A DNA stretch of 64,000 nucleotides from Polytrichum commune. Taxonomy: Eukaryota; Streptophyta; Polytrichopsida; Polytrichales; Polytrichaceae. Positions 27,657 through 41,776 of this stretch are shown here, piece by piece. The position numbers and the translations under genes are program-made. Every line of letters begins with the position of its first letter. The stretch's first letter is position 1. The notes beneath the pieces are model-generated. The model searched no databases, was not told where the DNA came from, and saw only the letters and a list, made by a program, of their open reading frames with translations. The DNA is taken from NCBI GenBank assembly GCA_950295325.1, contig OX485803.1, forward strand, positions 54,015,554 to 54,079,553. Direction: 5' to 3'.

Positions 27657-27747
27657 AGCAATCTAGGGCATTATGTCACAATCTTTGCAAGTGACGCATA
27701 TAACAATGTCAGCATTAAATATTTTTGCTTCCCCTTGATATGTTTTA
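27657..27747 (-). pseudogene. C-terminal fragment related to the gene at 40994-41776
   Basis: Read on the minus strand, the end of this stretch encodes MLTLLYASLAKIVT and a stop. The gene right of the large transposon ends MVTLLYESPTKTVT and a stop, in the same orientation. The matching DNA runs from AGGGCATTATGTCACA to about AACAATGTCA. Only about 80 bases match, and the rest of the gene is missing on this side. It lies immediately left of the transposon's left target-site copy. Confidence 0.55.
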
Positions 27748-27757
27748 GGTATGCGAC
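27748..27757. repeat. left target-site duplication of the 13.2-kb transposon
   Basis: GGTATGCGAC here is repeated exactly at 40962-40971. An eleventh base (G at 27758, T at 40972) may be a mutated part of it. A 10-11 base duplication fits Mutator-like elements, which usually make 8-11. Confidence 0.85.
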
Positions 27758-27758
27758 G

Positions 27759-27860
27759 AGGGAAGCTAACACATGAGCGATGTGCCGTGAGCAGTGAGCG
27801 GTGAGCGGTAACACATGAGCAATGAGCAGTAACATGTGAGCAATGATACCAAATTTAGTA
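27759..27860 (+). repeat. left terminal inverted repeat of the 13.2-kb transposon
   Basis: It begins AGGGAAGC and contains several GTGAGC/ATGAGC hexamers before TGATACCAAATTTAGTAAT. It aligns to the reverse complement of 40861-40961 with small gaps. Subterminal hexamer repeats of this sort are often transposase binding sites. Confidence 0.8.
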
Positions 27861-28067
27861 ATTGGGCACGGTTTTAGGTAATATTTTCTAAAATTGGCAC
27901 TCATATTTTTGGAATATAAAGTACTCACATTCGGATTGAAGAAGAATGAAGGCAACTTATAACCATGGATATTTAGTCCATTGCTGGTTTTTATTATAGA
28001 AATCCACACTAATACATGTCACTTATTCAAATTCTCAAACATGTAGTCAAATACAACACTTGAAATA

Positions 28068-31000
28068 TTACTCACATTCTACAACACCTACAAGTTCAAG
28101 TAATTGCATGACCTCGTTGTAGGAGTACGTTGGAGCATGAATGAACTTGTCACTATCATAATCCACTTTGCACAAAAATCTAAACACGTAATAAAGATGT
28201 TTGCAATACACCCATTTCCCTTTCTTTTTCAAGGACTGAGATGACATTTTGGTGAAGTCAGGGCATGTGCAATGCGGCATATCGCCAATTGTGACACGAT
28301 ATGTGATGTCCTCCTTGGAGACGATGTTGATTAGCACTCCAAATCTTGGATATGGAATGGCAGTTATTCCAACCACATAATATCCGTCCATAAGCCCGGC
28401 GCTCTCCCATTTGTTTTTATGATATATTGTTGGTGCTGCTAGATTGCGGCGCACTGACTTGCCAAACCTGGAAGTTGGGTGGGCATCCGGATTTAGTGGC
28501 ACATGAAAATCCGTCCGAGGGATTGGGAGTATCACAATTGTTGAAAGCCTACGGCGAGGAGAGAGAGCCTCCCTCTGCTGCAATTGGAACCCAACATCTT
28601 CGAGTGCCAATACTTCTTGCCTTGAGAGATTGGTACCTATCTTCACAGGCCATATGCTGGGAACTACAGGCCAATCTAACACACACTTACACAACGTTTG
28701 ATGTCATCAGGGCAAAACCAAAACTCGTACTCCACATTGTTGGTGGAGCGGTATTCCTTCTTCAATCCTTTGTACGTGGGAGCTGGTGTGCCATGTTTGC
28801 CAGTACCGACTTTGGCATTGCACAAAGTCCCTGTATTGGCTTGCATTGCCCAACATCTTTTGGCAGAGTTGGCTGGCAATCGTGCAATATGCCAATGGGA
28901 AGAAGAACAATCAGTCTCTAACACTGATGTGGTATGTGCCACACCATGCTCTGTAGAAACCAAAGATTCCTCTATGATTGCCCTTCTAACCCTAGTGTTA
29001 GGGCGAGGAATGGAGTAGTTCACTTTATTGGGTCGGTGTGAGTCACAATCTGCACCCGGTGGCAGATCAAGCTTTCGTTTGGTGGATCCAAACAACTCAG
29101 ACACCTCCAAAGCACAATCCCTAGTATTGAGATCTTGCAACCCTGAATAGGACTTCATGGCATCTGCCAATAGTTTCGGATCTCCGCACCTGGCAGCAGC
29201 TTTCAATTTCAAGGACGCAGAATTAGGCCCTTTACCAGTAGAACCACCTCTCAACCATGATCTGTAATTTGCAATCTGCATGAATGCACGGATCAAATCG
29301 TCCACTGTTGCTTCATACAGACAAGTCATCTTGTTTCCAGACTGCTGGAGCCATTTGTTGTGCACTGTTTCTGCAAGATTACACGTTGGCATTTCTGCAC
29401 GTTCATCCATTGTCATATCCTGCAAAAATATTACACAAATTAGAATAGATGGTATATGTAAATATATATCATGGATTTCTAAAAAGTAAAATAACATATG
29501 AAATACATAGTAATGAAGCACTTACAAGAATCATGTGACCACCCCATTGCCTATAACGAAAGTGCCAAAACCCCAACCACTCGAACAAGCCGAGAATGCC
29601 TTCTTCTATGGCAGCTCCGGATGACAACCACCATGAACGAATGACATGATATTTAGTTTCAGCTTCATCAATTGTTTTCGCGTCTTTATAATCCTTGCAT
29701 AGTTGTTTGTGCTGAAACTGCAAAGATATCTTGATATACTTCTGCGTCACCTTATCCAAACTTTGTGACCAATGAAAAAGATAAGTACGCTCACGACCCA
29801 CCATTGGCAAACTTGGGTCACCTACACCATAAATCTTTCTGACCGTATTCCAATTAGCCTGAGCGCTATCTGCCATGAAACCTTTGAAATTTACTTTTGA
29901 CACTCCATTCTCCGACATGACGGAGTTCAAGTTTTCCCAAAAGAGCATTTGAGCTACGCCATCTTCAGATTGCATGTCACAACACGCAATGGTCAACACC
30001 TTACAGTACTTGCTATCATACACATGACACGCAAGGGTGGTCCAGCCCTTCAGACGTTTGACGTGATCAAACATTATCCATGAATTCTCCATATCTCCTC
30101 CCACCTGCATACGTTTCACAATATCCACACCACTTCCCGGAAGATCTACTGACATTTTGAAGACAAATACTTTGTCTTTGGATTGTCCCGGGAATCTACT
30201 ATCATGGACGTACTTGAAGCCTGAATGATCTTTGAGTGCCATGATACTATCCATTGTGTCCATTCCACTACGAACAAAGCGTTTTGAGCCCGATACAAAG
30301 TTACGACAATTTGGAGAGGCAAGAGTACTGAATTTATCCATGACGACCTTTAATGACGAACCTGCTAGGTGATGTCCTTCACCATTTGATGGAGATTTTA
30401 GGAGGTAGTCTGCTAGGAATTTTTTGCTCGCTGCCATAACTATTGCAGAGTTTTTGGCAGTGGGTGTTTTTATGACCTCATTGGCAACGCATTGGTAAGC
30501 CATGTCAAGTGACTCACGACATGTACCATTTGATACAGGGTGTTCATGAACACCTAGATGTATACAAGCTCTTGACATCCCTGGGGATGTGGAGTGAACA
30601 TATAGTATGCGAGCATGACACAACGCAATACACGTTGGTGTTGAACGACATACCTTACATTCCAATCTTGATTTTTCTGGGGCAACATCTCCCACAGAAA
30701 ATGGGATAGGAGTCGATCCAATCCATTCGGTGCAGTTGTGAACACCTCCATTGCGATCCAGATAATCACAGTATGTATTTGTGCACTGTAAATGACCGGT
30801 ACATGAAGAACGTCTGAAAGAAAGTCCAAAATCGTTTTGGATATTTGTTGTTTTGGTTATGCACCACGGATGTCCGTCGCACATCTTATCCATGCCATCC
30901 ATGGAACGCCCATACGTACTAGAAACATCCACAGCTATTGGAGGCAAAATAAAGATAACATCACCATTAAAAGATGGTGGCAAGTACTTGACATCACGTA

Positions 31001-31661
31001 CATCTATAGTGTCAAAATCAATTGCAGTAAGATCGGATTTAGACCTTCTCCTAGACTTTGTCATTTTTAATGCATCGACAATATTAAAACCTGAAAAAAA
31101 TGAAGAAGGATGAAGAGGTGGACGTTGAGACGAAACACCATGGCGAATCAATTTCATGTACGACGAATTGTGAGGGGTTTTATCAACATCCACAGAGACC
31201 AGAACCGGATTGGAAGGCTTAGTCTTATAAGGAAAAGGTGATGTATCAGAAAGATCAACAACAGGACAATCCTCTTCATCTGAATCCAACAACACAAGAA
31301 CATCATCGTCACTTGGTTCTATCTTGACAGTAGCCATACTAGGCACATTGACAGTAGATGCGCCAGACTCATTTGTCAACAAAACAGTGGATGCTTGCAT
31401 CTGAGACTCAGAAAGCCCTATAATTCTAAATGATCCTGGACCTAAAATCCAAAAGTATCCATCTTGACACATGTTTTTCGGAATCAAAATTGTCTCCAAG
31501 ATATCGCCGTTCATGGAATACATCTCTTGCTCCACGTATATAGATCATATCCGGAGATTGAATCTCAAACTAAGCAACTCTTTTGAGACCTTCACATGAT
31601 GATCATCCTCAAGATGCAAAGTGAAGGGCACAAATGATCCAGATGCTTTAATGGTAGCCAT
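28068..31661 (-). pseudogene. MULE-type transposase with C-terminal SWIM zinc finger (one stop, one frameshift)
   Basis: Exon 1 spans 31661-29526 (712 codons, start MATIKASGSF), the intron 29525-29420 (GT-AG), and exon 2 29419-28068; about 1,160 codons in all. A Cys/His-rich region at ~260-375 includes CKVCRSTPTC and ends RACIHLGVHEHPV, resembling FLYWCH/WRKY-type fingers. The DDE core region at ~520-660 includes MFDHVK (D~532) and GFMADSAQANW (D~598). A SWIM motif near the end reads CTCPDF, later YCKHLYYV (CxC...CxH). Such a protein would cut and join transposon ends in the nucleus. Two lesions are visible: an in-frame TGA at 31547-31545 and a frame change near 28676-28690 in a GT-rich stretch. 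Exon 2 is two bases longer than a multiple of three, so one GT gain would explain it. Either lesion could also be an assembly error. The rest of the frame is open and conserved, so the decay is recent. Exact catalytic residues are my assignment. Confidence 0.85.
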
Positions 31662-32011
31662 TTTGAAGTAAGGGTATTGGAGAATGAAAGACATTGGAAT
31701 GTGCAAATGAAAGACTATTTGTATTGGCAATATTGGGCCTTCGCAAGAAACCCTAAATGAGAACAATAAAAAAATGAAGAAACCCTAATATCTAATAACA
31801 ATGAAAGTGATCACAATAAACGAGTTTCCGCGTCGAAAAAAAATAACAAGGAAAATATACGGTGTTAGTATATTTCAAAATAAATATTATAATCAATAGA
31901 ATAGAACCACGCGTTAATAAGATTCAATATATATATGTAGGAGTATGCACCAAACTTCGTATGAGTGTTTTAGAAAGTGAGTTGTATAGCGGTTAGCATT
32001 TATTATCACAG
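31662..32011. promoter_or_regulatory. shared divergent promoter region of the two transposon genes
   Basis: These ~350 bases separate the two divergent start codons. They are AT-rich and contain two AAACCCTA motifs (31748-31755 and 31780-31787), the plant telo-box sequence known from promoters of many growth-linked genes. A TATATATAT stretch near 31927-31937 could serve the plus-strand gene ~80 bases upstream of its ATG. No start sites can be fixed from sequence alone. Confidence 0.5.
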
Positions 32012-32869
32012 ATGCAAGAGGTAGATCAACATGAGACTAGTACACAATTGAGTGGAAGAAGGAAGAGACGAAAATGATTGTACTTCACAACAAAGAGAGT
32101 TCGAGAACGAGTAAGCAGTATGAGGAAAAAATCTAACATTGTAGTGCAGAAATATATAGATGATTTAGCAGAAACACAAAAGAGTATAGATTTGAATGAT
32201 TTGGACGAAGAAAGTGAAGAGGCAAGAGAAGAGGTTGATGGGGATGTATACAACAATACTGCATATAAGATTGGAATCCACGATGATGGTGAAGAGGAAG
32301 AAAATGAGCAAATCAAGATGTATGAAGAAGATGACAACAACTCCCTGCACGAAAACGAAGAAGATGAAGATGAAGATGAAGACGAAATTTATTGCGTAAG
32401 TATCTTTTGAGCATTTCATAGAAAATAACACATATTTGACATAACACAAATGCTATTGGAATTGCAATTTGATGAGAGTAATAGTTAGCCAGATGGTAGA
32501 GCAAGCGCATTACTTTGTTGAAAGTAGATAATTTTATTAAAAATTTATTAAGAAGAATCTACGCACACTTGCATAGGAAAGCCTTCTATGTATCCAACCT
32601 ATGTAATTTCCTGCCTAACCACTAGCTCATTAGGGGATAGCATCAGTCAATGCAACCAACCGAATTCGAACCCCGGTTAGTACAGACCGAAACATCAGTC
32701 TCTTTAGACTACTCGCATCCACAGGTGGATGTCTTAAATCCTTTTGCACATAGTTATATTCAATTCGCGAAGGTATATGATCGCTTCTAGCTAGTCTACC
32801 ATAAGCAACGACAAATACGTTTAAGAGTCCAGAAGGTATTAACAGGACTGCAAATTTCATACCCTTTCC

Positions 32870-33690
32870 CGGTGTATGAAAGTAGAAACACGTATGAGGA
32901 CCGGATAGGGTATGAGAGTGGAAATATGTAGGAGGGCCCCCAGGGTATTGGCGGTATGGCCACAACCCCCCGTGTATGACAGTGGATACACGTATGAAAG
33001 CCCCAGGGGTATTGGCGGTACCCACCACTATCATTTTGGGTATGAGAAGAGAAATACGAAGGAGGTCCCGAAGGGTATTGGCGGTGCCACCAATACCCCC
33101 CGGGTATTAAAATGAAAACATGTATAAAGGCCCCAACGGTATTGGTGATGCCCCTAACACCCCCCCCCCCCGGCCACCGTGGGTATGGAAATAGATATAC
33201 GTATGTGGTCTCACGGGTATTGGTGGCACCACCAATACCCACCGGGTATGAAGGAAGAAATACGTATGTGGTCCAAGGGGTATTGGCGGCACCGCCAATA
33301 CCCCTTCGGGTATAAAGGAGGAAATACATATGGGGTCTAATGGGTATTGGCGGCACCGCCAATACCCCCTCAGGTATAAAAGAAGAAATACGTATGTGGC
33401 CTAAGGGGTATTGGCAGCACCGCCAATACCCCCTCGGGTATAAATGAAGAAATACGTCTGTGGTCTAAGGGGTAATGGCGGCACCGCCAATACCCCCTCG
33501 GGTATGGAAGAGGAAGCACGTACAAGGGCTTGGGGATATTGGCGGTGCCGCCAATATCCCTCAGGGTATGGGAGAGGTTATGCATTAGAAAATACCAAGG
33601 GTATTGGCGGTACCGATAATATCCCTAAGGCCTAAAGTTGCGATGTTTATAAAGATATTGGCGGTGCCGCCGATACCATCCGGGTAGGAA
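32870..33690. repeat. tandem array of ~12 palindromic 64-bp units
   Basis: The core word TATTGGCGG or a close variant starts at 32947, 33010, 33076, 33140, 33218, 33281, 33345, 33409, 33473, 33537, 33602 and 33656. The spacing is 63-66, except 78 where a C run is inserted and 54 at the end. In the best units GGGGTATTGGCGG is followed by CA and then its reverse complement, a 13-bp arm hairpin with a 2-base loop. Between palindromes the units share GGGTATAAA-GAAGAAATACGTATG and GTCTAAG. Arm changes are often matched on the other side (33537: GATATTGG with CCAATATC), which suggests the pairing was conserved or recently copied. Confidence 0.9.
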
Positions 33691-34063
33691 ACTGAAAGTA
33701 TTTTTGGGTAAGCATTGTCCTCATCCAAATGTAAATTTTCATCCAATAAGATTCATTCGTCAAAAAATTCTGATAGACAAGGTAGGAAACCCTAAGTTCA
33801 GTTCTTTTTCGGTGGCTGAACATTGAGAAGAGTGTCAAGCCGTGATGGTAGTAAGGAGGTGGTGGAAGAAGATATTAGGTGTGGCGGGTTGTCGGAAGGT
33901 CGGATGTAACAAAGTATGAGGTGATTGTCTTCATTTGTGTATGTATGTATTGTGTATTCTGAAAATGCATATGAAAAGTTATTTTCAAGCTTAAGAACGT
34001 GTGTTTGTAATTTGTACAAGTATATGTTGTTATAATCTGTATAGATAAATGAGTTTGTATTTG

Positions 34064-34092
34064 AGGGTATTGGCGGTGCCGCCAATACCCCT
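34064..34092. repeat. isolated copy of the array palindrome
   Basis: GGGTATTGGCGG, TG, then the reverse complement: a 12-bp arm hairpin identical in core to the 64-bp units, ~400 bases downstream of the array. A degraded partner (GATATTGGCGG with an imperfect second arm) lies near 34173-34196. Confidence 0.8.
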
Positions 34093-37000
34093 GTAACAAC
34101 CAAATATTGAAGGACTGAATGCTTTGATAGCATAATGAAGAACCAATTCTACTGTGTATCAACAGTCTGAGGATATTGGCGGCACAACCAATATACCAAA
34201 GACTGTGTGTATGTTGGTGTGAATATTTGGGTGTTTATGTGTGTATGTGTGTGTGTTTTTTTTTTTTTTAAAAAGTCCGAAATTGGTAGATTTGGGTTTT
34301 AAGAGGTGAATTTTTAAAATTACAAAAACACCTTAGATTACGTTGAAAAAAAATAAGTGTATACATTTAGATCATCCCAGTAGACATGATTTTTTGTGGA
34401 ATTTAAAACTTGAATTTGGATTTTTAGGAAATTTCCAAAGTCTACTGTTTTGTGGGGTTGAAGATTTGTAATCTAATGTACCCCCTCGGTACATTCTAGA
34501 ATTTGTTTTATGAAGTGTTTCTTTCAACTAGGCAACTTTGAAGGTCCATAAACATTTAAGATCGTGATGAAAATTTATAAAATAAGTACGATCTGATTCA
34601 TTTTGTTTGGCTCTACTTCTTGTTCATATAATGTTTTTTCATATGAGTTCATTTTTTATGTTTAAAAATTTGTTGAAGTTCTACATAAGAAGTTGTTTGT
34701 TGTTTTGAATTTAGTTGAGGTGATCAACAATTTGTATTTTGACAAGTTTCTTCATCTTTGTTGCAGATGGAGACAAACAATACTTCTAAGCATTTGGCTT
34801 CTGATAACAAGCCAAATGATGATTTGTATGAAGTCACTTCTTTTCATGTGAAAGCAAATGCTATTTTGAGTGATCATTCGTTTTATTCTAACTCAGTGAT
34901 TGAAAATCTGGAATTTCAACCTACTTCAAAATCAAGATTCTTTATTCCGTTATGTCGTTTGCTTTCAATGCCTTTGGTTCGACCAACCTTGATGTCAGAT
35001 GTTCTCAAGTTGGAACAGGGTTTTATTGATGAGTATAGATCCGGAAGTGCCGTGTTCTATATCTCAGTTGTAAACAATGAAATGGAAACTGAAGATGTGA
35101 CCCTGAGTTGATAAATTCTTGAAATATACACTGAAAAAATGCAAGTACAAAATTCGATGAGTTTCTAAAAGAAAACGAGGTTCTCAACAAATTTGTGGGC
35201 AAGATGTTTTGGGTGTGGGATGGGAATCATTGTTTGCAAGCATGGAGGTCAGTTATCGATAAGCATCATTTTAGAGAGGCAACTTGGCACATTTCAGTGG
35301 ATTCTATTTTGTTGAATCCATCCCCTGATGTTGCGGTGCTGTTCACAGTAATGTACGATCTCAACAGGTAAATTTTTACCGTGTAATTTGTTTTTGTTTT
35401 TTCATTTCTCAAGTTTTTAGTTTGTTTCTTATTTGTTTTTTATATTTCTTATTGAATTCGTTTTGGTTGTTTCAGTAATGTTGAACATTCTCATGTGAAG
35501 ACCAACCTTGTGCATTAACTGTATCGTGTGCAAGCCATCGGAAGTCTACCCATTGAAAACTTCAAAAATTTATTGACACCTGACCAATACAAAAAGTGCA
35601 TCACAAAGACAATTGCAACGTGGTACTCGCTTACACGGGATCTCTTCTTAGATTATTTATATAATGTAAGTTTCATATCACTCTTCACACTCTTCGTTTA
35701 TTTCATTAGCTTTCTTGTTTTAATCATATTTCTGTGTTTAACTGATTTAACGTATTTCTGTGTTTAGCGTGATATTGCTGATGCAGGAGATTTGGCTAAG
35801 AAAAAATATTTTGAGGTTATTCAAGAGCATGAGAGGTCCGTTGAAGGAGTTACTGAATTTATGAATGCAGCAATGGATGCCAAACGTGTCAAACTAGACT
35901 CTAGTCTTGCAAAGTATTTACCCCTTGCGGATCCCAGTTTGAGACATGTATTCTTAGCTCAAATCAAACGGCATTATGACTTGTGTTATGAAGAACCTCA
36001 AATGAATCAAGAAAAACTTCAGCATCTTGTGACATCGAAAGTAGATGCCGCACAGAAGGTTAAATGGTTGGAGCTGTGGAATTCAACTCCTACATTTCGT
36101 ATGTCTTTGAAATTTCCAAAGATGCCTATTTCCGATAAGGCTTTTGATTTGTGGTTACACAAAGCAACCTTTTGGAGTCAGGTAATAATATCTCGTTGAA
36201 GTCTGTTTTGATCTGAATAATTGTAAGTATTATTTTCATATTATATGTATTCTATACTTTTGTTCTCATTTGTTTTTTTTTTTCAACAGTTGGCTAAAGA
36301 AGCTCTTTCTCTCTATGAATCCACAATTTCTGAATTAAACATCATCATCAAGATCGCTCCTGAAACAGTGGAACCTTTGCCACTTTTTGCTGATTATGTT
36401 GAATCTTGGAGGGTTACTTGTTGGGAAACGATATTTTTCAAATTGTTCAAATCGAATGACGGCATTGTGAAAAACAAGACTTTTGATAAACAGCCTGGAG
36501 GACTTCAAGCCATGAGGCGGGTTGTTTACAGGTATTTGTGATATTTGTCTTGACCGTATTTTATGTTTGGCATTCTTCATTTTTTTCCTATTTCTATAAC
36601 TCTTTTTACTTGAATCTAATTTTTTGGATTACACAAATACTTTAAGCGTGTGTTGCTTCCTGCCAATGCTTTGGATAAGCTACCAACATTTTTTGACAGT
36701 TTCAAAGATGTTCAATCGGAGAATTCGATGTTCATTCCTGAAATATGCAAGGATTGGAATGAGGTCCATTGGTATGAATGCGGATGATATTTGGATTGTC
36801 CTAAGAGTAAAACCCCACATTCCGAATTGGAATTGCGTAATCATCTTGAGCCAGCATTTGTTCCACCTACAGTGGAGGAAGATTTCCCACGTAGTGCACC
36901 CATTAAAAGCAAGAGGAAGAATAGTGTTCAAGTGCCCGAACAATCCAAAGACAATGGTCCAATGAATGATGAACCTTCTGGCAAGAAGCTTAAGGTTTCT

Positions 37001-38539
37001 AAACCTTCAACTTCATCAAATACCAACCCTGGTTTTTCTACAATTTTGGAGCCTTTTACTTCTTTGAGGATCAAGACTAAAGTTTCTCAAACTACACAAC
37101 GTAGTTATGATAATTACTCATTTGAGCTCATTTTGAATGATTTTTTTTTAACATATTAAATGTCAAAGAAAAGACTGACTCTTGGTCTCAATCTTTTCAT
37201 GACATCAATGCATTTCTTACTAAGGTATTTTTCTTCCCAATTTTTGTAAACTTTATGTTAAATAACAAATCAAATTTTGTTTTGCATTTTGTGGCTCGAT
37301 AATATACTGAATTCTATTGATTGTATTTATGTTGTTCAGGTTGGTGCAAATCGCACATTCTACTTTCAAGGTGTTCCAAAGGCAACACCAACAGTTGATT
37401 TGGTTATTGCAGATATTCCGGAGGGGCTCCCTATGCCTGGAATTTTAACACCTTCGTCTTCTATACCTTCTTGGAATGCAAAATCTGATAAATTTCTTGT
37501 TCTTTTTTCATTTTGAATGCAATATCTTCACGACGATGGTGTTTTGTTGATATTTCATCCTGAAGATCCAAAGTGGATGAAAGAGTTGTCTACATATTTT
37601 TTCAATTATAATTTCAAGGTTGGTCATGGACCTTGGACTTATGTGAACCCACTTCGTCTAGCCAATCCTCGTAATCCAAACAAAACGGTTAACAGTTAGT
37701 TTCACATCTCTTTTCATCATAATTTTTTTTTTCAATGAATTTTGTTGTTTCTGAACATTATAGTTTAATTAGTTTGTTATTTTACTTATGTTACATTTGT
37801 TGTGCAGACCATCAAGTTCACTGCTATTTTGCTTGTACGCTCTTTCAGTGATACTACTCGATTGAAACGCATGCCTTTGCCTTTTCAAATGAATATCAAC
37901 AAAGATCTTTCGGAGAATGGTATGAGTCTGGATGATGATGTTTTATACAACTTCACGGATGCTAGTTCTCAACTAATGAGAGATGATGGTATCACACCTT
38001 GGAGAGGCCAGCGAGAAAAACATCCATTGTTTTTCCATTGTTTGATTGATGCTTTCTCAAAACCCGAAGGCATTGTTGCAGACCTCACTGCTGGCACAGG
38101 TGTAAAACATTTTCTTTTTGCTTTGAAATTATTTTATTACGTCTTTTTTACAAACTAACATGTTCTCATTTGTTTATGTTTTGATAATTGTTTCTTATAT
38201 TTTGGATAGGACCTTCCATACATGTTTGCCGCGCTTTGAAGCGTCACTTCTTGGCGTTGGAAGGTGATAAAGATGTTTTTGATTCCGTCTTGAAGCCTTT
38301 AAATCTACAATCCCCTTTGCCTATTGGCAAAGATATCAATTTGGAAGACTCGGATGATTCTCCAATTGTTAATCGTGAGGCCGTCAATTTATTTTGTGAG
38401 TAAGTTTTGTTTGTTTATCTTGTTTAAAACCTTCATATGGTTGATTGTGTAATTTTTACTTGCATTATATTGTATATGCATTTAGTTGGATTATTATGAA
38501 TACTAACACATTTATGTTGTCATGTGCTAGCAATGTGAT

Positions 38540-40151
38540 CAGGGTTGTCTATTGTGTCGTGACGGAGGGTAATCCCGGCATAATGTCGTGCCGTCCCGAC
38601 ACGTATCCGTCACGACATTATGCCGGATGCTGTCTTTATCCTGACGGACTTGAATTTTACCGATTTTTTTGTGTAATTACATTAACCTAATTCGGACACG
38701 TAGGATTTACAATGTCCACGTGTGATGACATGTCAGCAAAGTAAAGGTAAAGTGGGGAAAAATTTACTAGAGCCCGTCCGCCCCTGTTCCCGACCCCGTC
38801 CGCTCCGTTCCCAACCCCGTATGCCCCGTTCCCCCCCGTCCGCCCCAGTTTTTTCCCCCCCCCCCCCCCTTCCCCGTCCGCCCCATTTTTTTTAAAAAAA
38901 ATTTCCCCCCCTCCGTCCGTCCCCGTTCCCGACCCCGTCCGCTCCGTTCCCAACCCCGTACGCCCCGTTCCCCCCCGTCCGCCCCTCTGTCCGCTCCCCC
39001 ATCCGCCCCAGTTTTTTTTTTTTTTTTTTTTTTTTCCCCGTCCGCCCCATTTTTTTTAAAAAAAAAATTTCCCCCCCCTCCGTCCGCCCCCGTTCCCGAC
39101 CCCGTCCGCTCCGTTCCCAACCCCATACACCCCGTTCCCCCCCGTCCGCGCCCTGTTCCCCTCGCCCGCCCCTCCGTCCGCTCCCCCATCCGCCCCAGTT
39201 TTTTTTTTTTTTTTTTTCCCCCCCCCCTTCCCCGTCCACCCCATTTTTTTTGAAAAAAAAATTCCCCCCCCCTCCGTCCGCCCTCGTTCCCGACCCCGTC
39301 CGCTCCGTTCCCAACCCCGTACGCCCCGTTCCCCCCCGTCCGCCCCTCCGTCCGCTCCCCCGTCCGCCCCAGTTTTTTTTTTTTTTCCCCCCCCCCCTTC
39401 CCCGTCCGCCCCATTTTTTTTTTTAAATCCCCCCCCCCCCGTCCGCTCCGTTCCCAACCCCATACGCCCCGTTCCCCCCCGTCCGCGCCCCATTCGCCCC
39501 CGTCCGCCCCAGGTTTTTTTTTCCCCCCCCCCCCCTTTCCCCGTCCGCCCCATTTTTTTAAAAAAAAAATTTCCCCCCCCTCCGTCCGCTCCCGTTCCCC
39601 CCCGTCCGCCCCAGGTTTTTTTTTTTTTTTTTTTTTTTTTCCCCCTTTCCCCATCCGCCCCATTTTTTTTTAAAAAAAATTTCCCCCCCCTCCGTCCGCC
39701 CCCGTTCCCGTTCCCGACCCCGTCCGCTCCCGTTCCCCCCGTCCGCCCCCGTTCCCGACCCCGTCCGCTCCGTTCCCCCCCCCCCCCCCCCCGGTCCGCC
39801 CCCGTTCCCGACCCCGTCCGCTCCGTTCCCCCCCCACCCCCGTCCGCCCCACCCTCGTCCCCCGTCCGCCCCACACCCTCCTTAGTCGTTTTTTACTACT
39901 TTGATTTTAACAAAATGGTAAACAAAATGGCAAAATGATTTACCTGGCGCTAGGCATATCCACGACCACGTCGGCGTTTTCTGCCACATAGGACGCCACC
40001 TTGGCAAGAAGGTAAGTATTTTACCCACCCTAGTATGTTCCCCCTATGTTGACCCTACGTGGACCCTATTGTGTCGTGACGGAGGGGTCCGTCACGACAC
40101 GACACGACATGACGGCACGACACCGTCATGACGTCGCGATAGACAACCTTG
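38540..40151. mobile_element. non-autonomous hAT-type element inserted in the last exon of the methyltransferase gene
   Basis: An exact 8-base duplication AATGTGAT flanks it (38532-38539 and 40152-40159). The ends are inverted repeats: left CAGGGTTGTCTATTG; right, read inward, CAAGGTTGTCTATCG, then GACGT-ATGACGG-like words. An 8-base duplication and CAGGG/CAAGG termini are hAT hallmarks. Subterminal hairpins include a perfect 16-bp pair (38575-38590 with 38611-38626). The interior is mostly C-rich minisatellite with no transposase. Removing it and one duplication copy restores the reading frame of the last exon. Confidence 0.85.
38780..39880. repeat. C-rich minisatellite inside the hAT element
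   Basis: Repeated blocks of roughly 100-170 bases are built from CCCCGTCCGCCCC, long T runs, A runs, long C runs, CCGTTCCCGACCCCGTCCG and CCCAACCCCGTACGCCCC. Read on the minus strand they give long open frames of Gly/Lys/Arg/Thr repeats. These frames reflect composition and are not genes. The run lengths are likely to be unreliable in any assembly. Confidence 0.85.
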
Positions 40152-40860
40152 AATGTGATACCTCAATGTCGCCGACGTTGGCGACCTTTTTTTGAAGATC
40201 CAAATTTTGTAGCAAGTCCATCACCTCCACGAAGCCTCCCTATCTATGCCGAGACCATGGCTTCCGTTCTTGCCGCTCAATCTTCCCCTTCTTCTACCCA
40301 TAGCAAATCTAAACGGTATGATCGTCGGGTTTTGGAGTTCATAGATTTAGAGGCCGAATCATAATCAACCTCCATCACTTTAACTTATACTAATAATTAT
40401 TATTTTTTGGCACGTGTTCAACTCTCATATTTACACTTGGTATCAATACTTTGAAATACATTAACTTATGATATACCTTGAAGGACTTACACATGTTTTG
40501 TGTCCAACTCTATCTTTTTTGCACTCTCTATATTTATGTTGTATAATGACCAATTATAAAATTTAGTATCATTGCACCATGTTTTGTTTTATTGTTCAAT
40601 GTGTTCATATTATGAATGTTAATGATCATCATTATCATGAGCATCATTCACTTCAACTTTGTCCATTCCATTGTCATACGGCATGCAATACAACTATGAA
40701 AATTTGTATATGATAAATATATATATGCCCCTAGTCATGTACATATTGGTCTTTTTCGTTGCTCACTACTCACAATCTAGCATTCATGTTGTTTGTCCTT
40801 CCCAATCTTCTTATTATTGAACCCTAAAAATTTATTTCTTTAGGCGACGGTTATAGGATA

Positions 40861-40961
40861 CTAGGGGACCTATTACCAAATATTTTGTTTTCTTCACCGC
40901 TCACAAATTACTGCTCATCGCTCACTGCTCACTGCTCACCACTCACAAGATAGCACTCCCT
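40861..40961 (-). repeat. right terminal inverted repeat of the 13.2-kb transposon
   Basis: Read inward from 40961 it begins AGGGAGTGCTATCTTGTGAG, continues with GTGAGCAGTGAGC units and ATGAGCAGTAATTTGTGAGC, and ends with a segment like TATTTGGTAATAGG. These align in order with the left repeat. Confidence 0.8.
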
Positions 40962-40971
40962 GGTATGCGAC
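40962..40971. repeat. right target-site duplication of the 13.2-kb transposon
   Basis: GGTATGCGAC, identical to 27748-27757, directly follows the terminal CACTCCCT of the element. Confidence 0.85.
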
Positions 40972-40993
40972 TAGGTATCTTGAAACCAGGGCA

Positions 40994-41776
40994 TTATGTC
41001 ACAGTCTTTGTAGGTGATTCATATAACAATGTCACCATTTTTAAAAATTTGGAATCCACTTCTTCACACAAACTAGCATAGTCATTGGGATCTTGCGCCG
41101 CAACCTTGATGATATAGACATCAAGATATATTGTGTATAGAGCCTTCAACACATCCAAAAACTTGGATCTAGGTCTGCCACTTTTATTTGCTTCCCCGTT
41201 ACTATCACATTCAATCACATGAGGCTTGAGTCCTTTAGCCTTTCTATCTGTTTCCTCGGCCTCATACACATGTTGGGCGTTATGTCGTTGTTTTCTAGAT
41301 GATGATTTGTTCTTTGCGGCATGCTTGAAGTGTAAAATAAGAAAACATGTTTAGAGAAGCATAACCAACAAACCCACCCACATTAGCCACATCATTGCAT
41401 GTGGAGAGGGCCAACCATGTCTACATACACAAATCCAATGCTTATACCAATCCCAGGCTCAAGACCATTGAAGCAATCATCTGGACCACCAATTCAACCA
41501 CAAAAATTCATGCAAGGAGGACTAGATGAAACCATCATCAACATCATGTAGGCATAAAAATATCAACAATAGTGAATAGTGGCACATGCAAGGGACAAAG
41601 TCAAAGTTGCACATATAGGATGGTACCTTTGGTGGCAATGTTACATTTGGGCATTTGCAAGTATCAGTGGTTATGTCCCTGGCAACTTGGAATTGCTCAT
41701 CCACTGCACGCTCTTGTGAGGATGCACATGCACTTCTTTGTGTGTTCTCCACCACATTGTTAGTTACATCCACCAT
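40994..41776 (-). CDS. small two-exon gene of unknown family
   Basis: Exon 1 spans 41776-41627 (50 codons, start MVDVTNNVVE, end TLPPK, donor GTACCA). The intron is 41626-41324, and exon 2 runs 41323-40994 (109 codons plus stop). Phases agree (0/0) and there is no internal stop; the product would be 159 residues. Exon 2 starts with a basic stretch (HAAKNKSSSRKQRH), then GLKPHVIECDSNGE, GRPRSKFLDVLKALY, and a helical, charged end. I do not recognise the family. A fragment of a second copy of its 3' end lies left of the large transposon at ~27.66-27.75 kb in the same orientation, so it is repetitive and may belong to another mobile element. More upstream exons are possible. Confidence 0.4.

Follow-up and report, generated by a model that had tools for sequence, protein, structure and literature searches.

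A methyltransferase-fold gene and its palindrome arrays travel with a large MULE-like transposon lineage of Polytrichum commune and may serve self-recognition

What is a gene with a methyltransferase-like domain doing inside a plant transposon, and does it belong to the transposon at all? These questions are raised by a stretch of 64,000 nucleotides from Polytrichum commune (assembly GCA_950295325.1, contig OX485803.1, positions 54,015,554 to 54,079,553 of the forward strand), here called the window. An element at 27758-40961 of the window, resembling Mutator-like elements (MULEs), has a transposase gene on the minus strand and, on the plus strand, a multi-exon gene that has a ParB-like region and whose last third is a beta-class methyltransferase-like domain. 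Across the genome, the two genes recur together and move as a unit, and the second gene is accompanied by arrays of palindromes, a new observation absent from the preliminary description of this DNA. We propose, with moderate confidence, that gene and array form a self-recognition cassette like VANC, probably with an anti-silencing function, and we infer that the protein binds the palindromes of its own element.

The two genes are paired far more often than expected by chance. The genome searched comprised 408 Mb in 64 contigs, and the PsaA encoded on contig C8 is closest to chains 8htu and 6l35/7ksq/7kux/7xqp, from the moss Physcomitrium patens. Each search scored a capped number of candidates, and genome-wide counts are therefore lower bounds: transposase searches scored the best 64 of 2710 and the best 150 of 1447 candidates (214 non-redundant transposases), ParB-like exon searches the best 150 of 1153 (151 matches reported) and the best 150 of 1104 (295 non-redundant exons), and the methyltransferase exon search the best 150 of 1049. 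A divergent transposase lies no more than 15 kb upstream of at least 100 of the 295 listed ParB-like exons, compared to eight exons with a convergent transposase and seven with one on the same strand. Random placement, a control that shifts positions only, gives 1.1 divergent pairs on average and a maximum of six in 200 trials. Among 149 ParB-like exons listed by one search, at least 49 are followed within 15 kb by a listed methyltransferase exon on the same strand and, with the larger transposase list, at least 53 are divergent to a transposase, three convergent, and five on the same strand (0.5 at random). The first 143 bp of the left terminus of the window element are matched at 40 or more genomic places (best 40 of 489 candidates), and in at least 11 of the 40 scored copies, the window included, a methyltransferase exon follows downstream on the same strand at a distance of 4-21 kb; one more copy, with the exon at 1.3 kb, was not counted. 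A first, smaller test found at least seven of 150 methyltransferase exons with a transposase within 25 kb (four divergent upstream, two on the opposite strand downstream, and one on the same strand) and is weak because only 64 transposases were listed.

Young copies show that the pair is mobile. Family H, one of several families of relatives, is present at C5:30.94-30.96 Mb (17.2 kb) and at C3:35.19-35.21 Mb (15.6 kb). Two blocks that span both genes, of 6.9 and 6.3 kb, align between these copies at 99.8% and 99.6% identity; the array between the genes differs in length, and the flanking 10-bp duplications are different (GAGAGGGGGG, which is of low complexity, and GGTCTCCTAC). Counting the second H copy, at least 16 more ParB-like exons of H type match the query at 97-99% identity and contain no stop. 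Because the second gene is divergent to a transposase in so many listed copies, and because the two have moved together in young copies flanked by fresh duplications, its membership in the transposon is supported. The recurrence of both genes proposed in the preliminary description is thus borne out, and the chance nesting that would have undone the association is ruled out by the divergent pairs and the comparison of the two H copies.

The window element itself is bounded by exact 10-bp copies of GGTATGCGAC and has the following ends:

27748-27757: target-site duplication, left copy, GGTATGCGAC
27758-27811: left terminus, GAGGGAAGC..., with subterminal GAGCGGTGAGCGG-type repeats; inverted match to the right terminus
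40908-40961: right terminus, ending CACTCCCT
40962-40971: target-site duplication, right copy, GGTATGCGAC, exact

The duplicated sequence occurs at exactly two sites in the window, where 0.03 are expected, and in none of 100 shuffles was it found at two. The termini are imperfect inverted repeats: their best local stretch, of 38 bp, scores 46, and 500 pairs drawn at random from the window reach no more than 23. Both the inverted termini and the duplications outside them had been noted before and withstand these controls. Exact 10-bp duplications, within the 9-11 bp typical of MULEs, flank the window copy, both H copies, and the family C element (AATGGGCAAC); none was found in a search of the family B element, and the left terminus of family F was not located by the search made for it. 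Host DNA on either side of the window element has a similar direct repeat of ∼60 bp (AGGGCATTATGTCAC..., 27665-27724 and 40988-41050), indicating that the insertion sits within a local repeat.

The genes of the element are arranged as follows:

28068-31544, minus strand: transposase gene, with open reading frames (ORFs) at 29469-31544 (691 residues, open), 28676-29521, and 28068-28703 (SWIM-like finger)
32010-32397, plus strand: probable exon 1 of the methyltransferase-like gene, with basic RRKRRK.LYFT and an acidic tail; one stop here; GTAAGT donor; similar exon in families B, F, and H
32398-34767, plus strand: probable intron 1, which holds the palindrome array; GTAAGT donor at 32398 and ...TTGCAG acceptor before 34768
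34768-35370, plus strand: ParB-like region, PLCR..VRP ... WDGNHCLQAW; in-frame stops and a frame change here; intact relatives aligned
35519-37159, plus strand: middle exons; no Pfam match at E≤1; B and F have homologous exons
37341-37696, plus strand: methyltransferase motif IV exon, VIADIPEGLP; one stop in the window copy
37809-38402, plus strand: exons for methyltransferase target recognition and S-adenosylmethionine (SAM) motif I, PWRG...DLTAGTG / RHFLALEGD
40160-40365, plus strand: rest of the last methyltransferase-like exon, LPIYAETMASVLAAQ...; similar to the last exon in families B, C, F, and H

Of the MULE-type transposase with a SWIM finger described earlier, the 691-residue minus-strand frame is confirmed. 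The SWIM finger at 28068-28703 scores E 0.004 and 17.1 bits, under the Pfam cutoff of 19.6 (E 0.14 for the H transposase), and the Pfam MULE domain has no match at E≤10 in the transposase ORFs of the window, F, or H. The spacing of ∼350 bases between gene starts, also given in that description, fits if the acidic exon at ∼32010-32397 is exon 1 and the transposase starts near 31661, a start placed by comparison with family F. A basic first exon (RRK/KRRxRK.LYF) is found in the window, B, F, and H, followed by a GTAAGT donor in the window and F. The methyltransferase-like gene thus seems to begin with this exon, and the stretch from there to the ParB-like exon would be intron 1.

In the window, the gene is broken by in-frame stops and by a younger insertion in its last exon:

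38540-40151: younger nested element with terminal inverted repeats (AGGGTTGTCTAT...), splitting the last methyltransferase-like exon
38532-38539 and 40152-40159: 8-bp duplication of the nested element, AATGTGAT, read from the sequence

The interior of the nested element is mostly CCCCGTCCGCCCC-type repeats and long runs of C and T. The window element is best explained as an old member, now decayed, of a large lineage of MULE-like transposons.

Relatives are better preserved. The second gene can be modeled in family B as 972 residues and in family F as 1077 residues, each in seven exons with GT-AG introns and no stop. Among the four copies of group B, pairs with a synonymous divergence (dS) of 0.24-0.52 have ratios of nonsynonymous to synonymous divergence (dN/dS) of 0.05-0.08 for the motif IV exon and of 0.06-0.22 for the motif I exon. 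B and L019, the least diverged pair, differ by few changes and give 0.25 and 0.36. In group B, the second gene is therefore kept under purifying selection. The picture from the remaining pairs is less clear: C and L025 have 2.71 and 0.72 at very low dS, and L023 and L024 have no synonymous changes in one exon and a ratio of 1.0 in the other. For the window copy and its relative L015, ratios of 0.66 and 1.78 are as expected for decay. In the ParB-like exon, dN/dS is 0.13 for F and L028, 0.23 for C and L030, 0.31 for F and L033, 0.87 for L028 and L033, and 0.16-0.39 for remoter pairs. Capture of genes by MULEs is common, and the second gene could be passive cargo with no role in the element. We consider the chance of this close to negligible, given the divergent pairing, the ParB-like exons without stops in the youngest copies, and the purifying selection in group B.

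The palindromes lie between the two genes. In the window, they form one array:

32908-33569: tandem array of 64/130-bp units with palindrome GGTATTGGCGG-NN-CCGCCAATACC

Exact sites are at 33279 and 33343 in the array and at 34066 in the same probable intron. The repeat unit measures 64 bp in the window and 105 bp in C; B has 233-bp units and, in a later intron, a second array, F has units of 64 and 32 bp, and H has units of 171 bp. In 14 of 23 loci, three or more strict CG-N4-CG sites are upstream of the ParB-like exon; the array is weaker in two loci and seven have none that is usable. Eleven distinct palindromic 16-mers are repeated at least three times per locus, and in eight of them CG occupies the fourth and third bases before the center. 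In a fresh test of eight newly fetched upstream regions, seven had a repeated CG-N4-CG palindrome and the eighth, L056, a shorter TCGGGTCCGA six times; these loci were picked from the ParB-like exon lists mostly for open exons, five have a listed divergent transposase, and one is F-type. In an earlier set of eight loci, L039 has a strict array, L035 an imperfect one, and L038 a decayed trace of two units; L036 has 2,500 N in this place, and no such array was found in the other four (L037, L040, L041, and L042).

Several observations accompany the arrays. A second F palindrome (GTTTGGGTCG-NN-CGACCCAAAC, in 32-bp units) is also present between transposase ORFs (F, L005, ∼1730-1880), apparently in a transposase intron. 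In L037 (C5:18217000-18223699), a palindrome of a different type, TTCTGCA-NN-TGCAGAA, occurs three times upstream of the ParB-like exon, with no tandem array found. Runs of N separate the two genes in L009/L010 (∼5.0 kb; C3:58.4895-58.5095 Mb) and in L036 (at least 2.5 kb; C3:41.436-41.442 Mb), where an array could lie, and are perhaps arrays that resisted assembly. Giant ORFs of 2,527 and 1,905 residues at C3:58.49 Mb were rejected as an artifact of a run of N.

Palindromes are specific to families and accompany the matching type of gene. Genome-wide, the B palindrome occurs 259 times, that of H 374 times, and the window type 36 times, and reversed patterns are absent. Co-occurrence was scored for the first 50 sites each of B and H, all on contig C1. 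Every one of the 50 B sites is within 12 kb of a listed methyltransferase or ParB-like exon, compared to 1.8% for a random C1 position, as are 34 of the 36 window-type sites. For H, 46 sites are near exons listed by the H search and none is near those of the lists serving B and the window type; conversely, none of five B clusters is near exons of the H-search list. Listed transposases are near at least 32 of the 50 B sites, 27 of the 50 H sites, and three of the 36 window-type sites.

Comparisons between families separate the cassette from the transposase. The transposase cores of B and H are 97% identical, whereas their methyltransferase and ParB-like parts are 37% and 39% identical and their palindromes are different. 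Likewise, C and F have cores that are 98% identical, methyltransferase parts at 31%, and ParB-like parts at 44%; this pair is weaker evidence for exchange because the palindromes still share an 8-bp CGTTAACG. B and C, with cores at 68%, methyltransferase parts at 52%, and ParB-like parts at 62%, have palindromes that share 12 bp, GCCGTTAACGGC. Compared as DNA, C and F, and likewise H and B, lose their similarity between the transposase and the array and regain it at the right terminus. In the main, the type of palindrome goes with that of the methyltransferase cassette, and cassettes have been exchanged between transposase lineages. The placement of arrays between the two genes could instead suggest that protein and palindromes serve transposition, as a transposase cofactor or in control of cut-and-paste or copy number, and second genes are known in MULEs, among them mutB and vanB in the portion of PMC6446971 drawn on here. 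Against this, B and H, and also C and F, pair nearly the same transposase core and similar termini with palindromes and cassettes that differ, and several copies have no array; we consider this explanation quite unlikely.

The arrays might also act as RNA, with hairpins in introns that feed or block small-RNA silencing and a protein of separate function. Palindromes can fold in a transcript, and the window and F arrays are in a probable intron, yet hairpins have no need of the CG-N4-CG core seen in eight of 11 motifs, and the sequence of the arms mostly sorts with gene type. We regard action as RNA as highly unlikely.

Is the protein a METHYLTRANSFERASE? Judged by its sequence, the answer is yes for the fold and no for the usual catalytic motif. 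The Pfam profile N6_N4_Mtase (PF01555) matches all five aligned family members (best E 1e-6; member 1 is below the curated cutoff), and the alignment of the family profile to CcrM, whose structure is solved, extends from motif IV through motif I (E 2.9e-6, positions 17-237 of 243); the profile also aligns with DpnA (E 3.7e-7). Profile comparison thereby recovers the overall fold and the beta-class order of motif IV, target region, and motif I. Conversely, [DNS]PP[YFW], which is necessary for amino-methylation, is in none of the 18 copies with a readable motif IV, two of which are partly read or decayed; motif IV could be read in 11 of 13 further loci fetched (L022 and L027 gave none). The fourth residue is D or E in 15 of 18 copies and V, K, or Y in one each. 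By copy, the motif is:

DIPE: window
EYPD: B, L019, L020, L021, L023, L024
DYPD: C, L025
QFPD: F
DLPE: H, L026
VIPE: L015
NIPV: L016
DILE: L018 (decayed)
xLSK: L017 (partial)
DIPY: L049
DIPD: L050

In the main rival reading, the protein would be catalytically active and place a bacterial-type mark, N4-methylcytosine or N6-methyladenine, on the palindromes, as in the preliminary description and in the proposal made for the algal elements discussed below. In its favor, the beta-class fold with SAM motif I is recognizable in five aligned families, palindromes suit a dimeric or symmetric writer, and L049 has DIPY at motif IV. L049 and L050 are 98.5% identical in DNA and differ at the fourth motif IV residue, so DIPY may be a private change. 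Against an active writer, the catalytic motif is missing from every readable copy, the base-stacking position is mostly acidic, a DNA pattern for DL..xDPPY has no match genome-wide, and the altered motif is in an exon with dN/dS of 0.05-0.08 in group B. A working DNA-methylation gene is thus not supported, and we consider an active writer unlikely. Purifying selection without the usual catalytic motif points to binding of DNA or SAM at least as much as to methylation, and catalysis may have been lost or changed.

L049 (G000:C1:9662150) and L050 (C4:44111740) represent a further family, with an open frame of 577 residues across the methyltransferase part, and are two of the five places found by a genome search with the N6_N4_Mtase profile. 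The other three places, on small contigs (G000:C10:4592-5212, C10:15117-15353, and C12:29682-30278), match this profile strongly (best E 9.6e-26) and may reflect contamination from bacteria or phage, or else a separate gene.

Under the VANC-like reading, the second gene would encode a sequence-specific self-recognition protein in which a ParB-like domain and a middle part with no recognized domain precede a beta-class methyltransferase fold that lacks the usual catalytic motif. Probably as a dimer, this protein would bind the family's own palindromes, with their CG-N4-CG core and family-specific arms, in intron 1 near the two divergent promoters. Occupation or modification of these sites would mark a copy as self, and a marked copy would most likely keep its transposase and its own gene expressed against silencing by the host, as VANC does for Arabidopsis VANDAL elements. 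Two CpGs at a fixed spacing suggest that binding may compete with or sense CG methylation. As a tentative extension, possible and somewhat short of probable, ParB-like pseudo-methyltransferases and their cognate CG-N4-CG arrays may be exchangeable identity cassettes that recombine between transposase lineages, diversify as in an arms race, and shield the CpGs of their sites from CG silencing, convergent with VANC and based on a bacterial-type protein.

Several findings weigh against the VANC-like reading. Seven of the 23 loci are without a usable array, one owing to an N gap, and these include A2, a close relative of the window copy. Three of the 11 repeated palindromic 16-mers do not have the core: F has GGGTCG-NN-CGACCC, with CG one base closer, the second is a string of TG repeats inside the palindrome of L054, and the third is that of L037. 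Four of the 50 H sites and two of the 36 window-type sites are near no listed exon. In family I (C7:23.41 Mb), an imperfect palindrome like that of B goes with a ParB-like exon that is only 40% identical to the B exon. Because array and gene are neighbors, linkage alone could explain why they travel together. Relative to the rest of the element, the observed/expected ratio of CpG is higher in the arrays of three of five families and lower in those of B and H; persistent hypomethylation is therefore not visible. Compensatory changes within arrays are few (in A, five complementary versus ten not) and are not used as support because the choice of sites favors conserved palindromes. Lastly, ParB was not recovered by Pfam, PDB, and phage-profile searches, with a ParB-like phrog_1033 match at E 0.22 at best, and in a focused comparison of half of the domain, two of 60 shuffles reached its score.

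The ParB assignment is accordingly weaker than it sounds, as it comes from a motif: in aligned intact relatives, DGNHR..AW is invariant in three families and GNHR..W in seven. Of the ParB and class-beta methyltransferase gene described previously, the methyltransferase part is upheld, and the ParB label stands as a motif to which profile searches add no match. Comparison to phage divides the protein in the same way. The plant family and a phage protein match by methyltransferase profile (94% probability), and no match was found by profile between the plant ParB-like region and phage ParB. Matches by tblastn to phage are remote (23.6-23.9% identity, best six of 128 records). Nineteen pattern stretches in viral_contigs were considered as viral relatives and none was confirmed.

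These elements provide a natural set of protein-site pairs, with nine distinct palindromes in tandem arrays and swaps between near-identical transposases. The pairs allow a direct test of how a transposon tells its own DNA from that of its host, and of whether different proteins have given rise to anti-silencing on separate occasions; VANC is not known to be a ParB/methyltransferase-like protein. A methyltransferase fold under purifying selection without the usual catalytic motif is also a candidate for a binding-only or repurposed enzyme in eukaryotic epigenetics.

Known systems match this architecture in part. In prokaryotes and phage, the ParB-methylase fusion Bce_0392 of Bacillus cereus, as given in the part of PMC5512222 drawn on here, and the phage NatCom_3357 protein likewise have a ParB-like part before a beta-class methyltransferase. 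Unlike the plant family, three phage fusion proteins have DPPY and a compact ParB. DNA transposons of fungi that encode TET/JBP dioxygenases (PMC12730594) and retrotransposons of dinoflagellates and charophytes that carry DNA methyltransferases (PMC5890265), as far as the portions of these reports used here describe them, likewise bring their own DNA-modification enzymes, from different enzyme families and in different transposon classes.

The closest match in architecture is algal. Sola1-1_Ec32 of Ectocarpus (21.5 kb) encodes a protein of 1,104 residues, ParB-like and N4/N6-methyltransferase, opposite its transposase; the portion of PMC12477816 drawn on here also cites green and red algal cases (Iyer 2011; Petroll 2025) and suggests that proteins of this kind bind the transposon encoding them and modify it. 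Agreement with the P. commune family is in architecture alone: a protein of ∼1,100 residues with a ParB-like part and an N4/N6-type methyltransferase, opposite the transposase of a large DNA transposon. The elements here differ in being MULE-like, in their 10-bp duplications, and in residing in a green-plant genome, and their palindrome arrays, cassette exchange, and altered catalytic motif are not among the Sola1 features in that portion of the paper. No land-plant or MULE case of such an accessory gene was found among the search listings of one open-access library, and one elsewhere, for example in Repbase, is possible. The earlier statement that no plant transposon of this make-up had been described thus holds for land plants within those listings and needs qualifying by the algal Sola1 case. 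As ParB-methyltransferase accessory genes are known from algae, the new points are the arrays, the exchange, and the loss of the catalytic motif.

The arrays and the exchange of cassettes strengthen the comparison to VANDAL and VANC made in the preliminary description. According to the part of PMC5735166 used here, VANC motifs are tandem repeats in introns of VANC and VANB and upstream of VANA. Both systems combine a MULE or MULE-like element with an accessory gene and family-specific motifs repeated in tandem in introns or noncoding DNA, as found here in the 14 loci with strict arrays, and in both the motif changes fast with the protein. They differ in that the VANC21 motif, YAGTATTAY, is directional and not palindromic, and in that anti-silencing is a demonstrated property of VANC, where in P. 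commune it is predicted from the likeness of the two arrangements.

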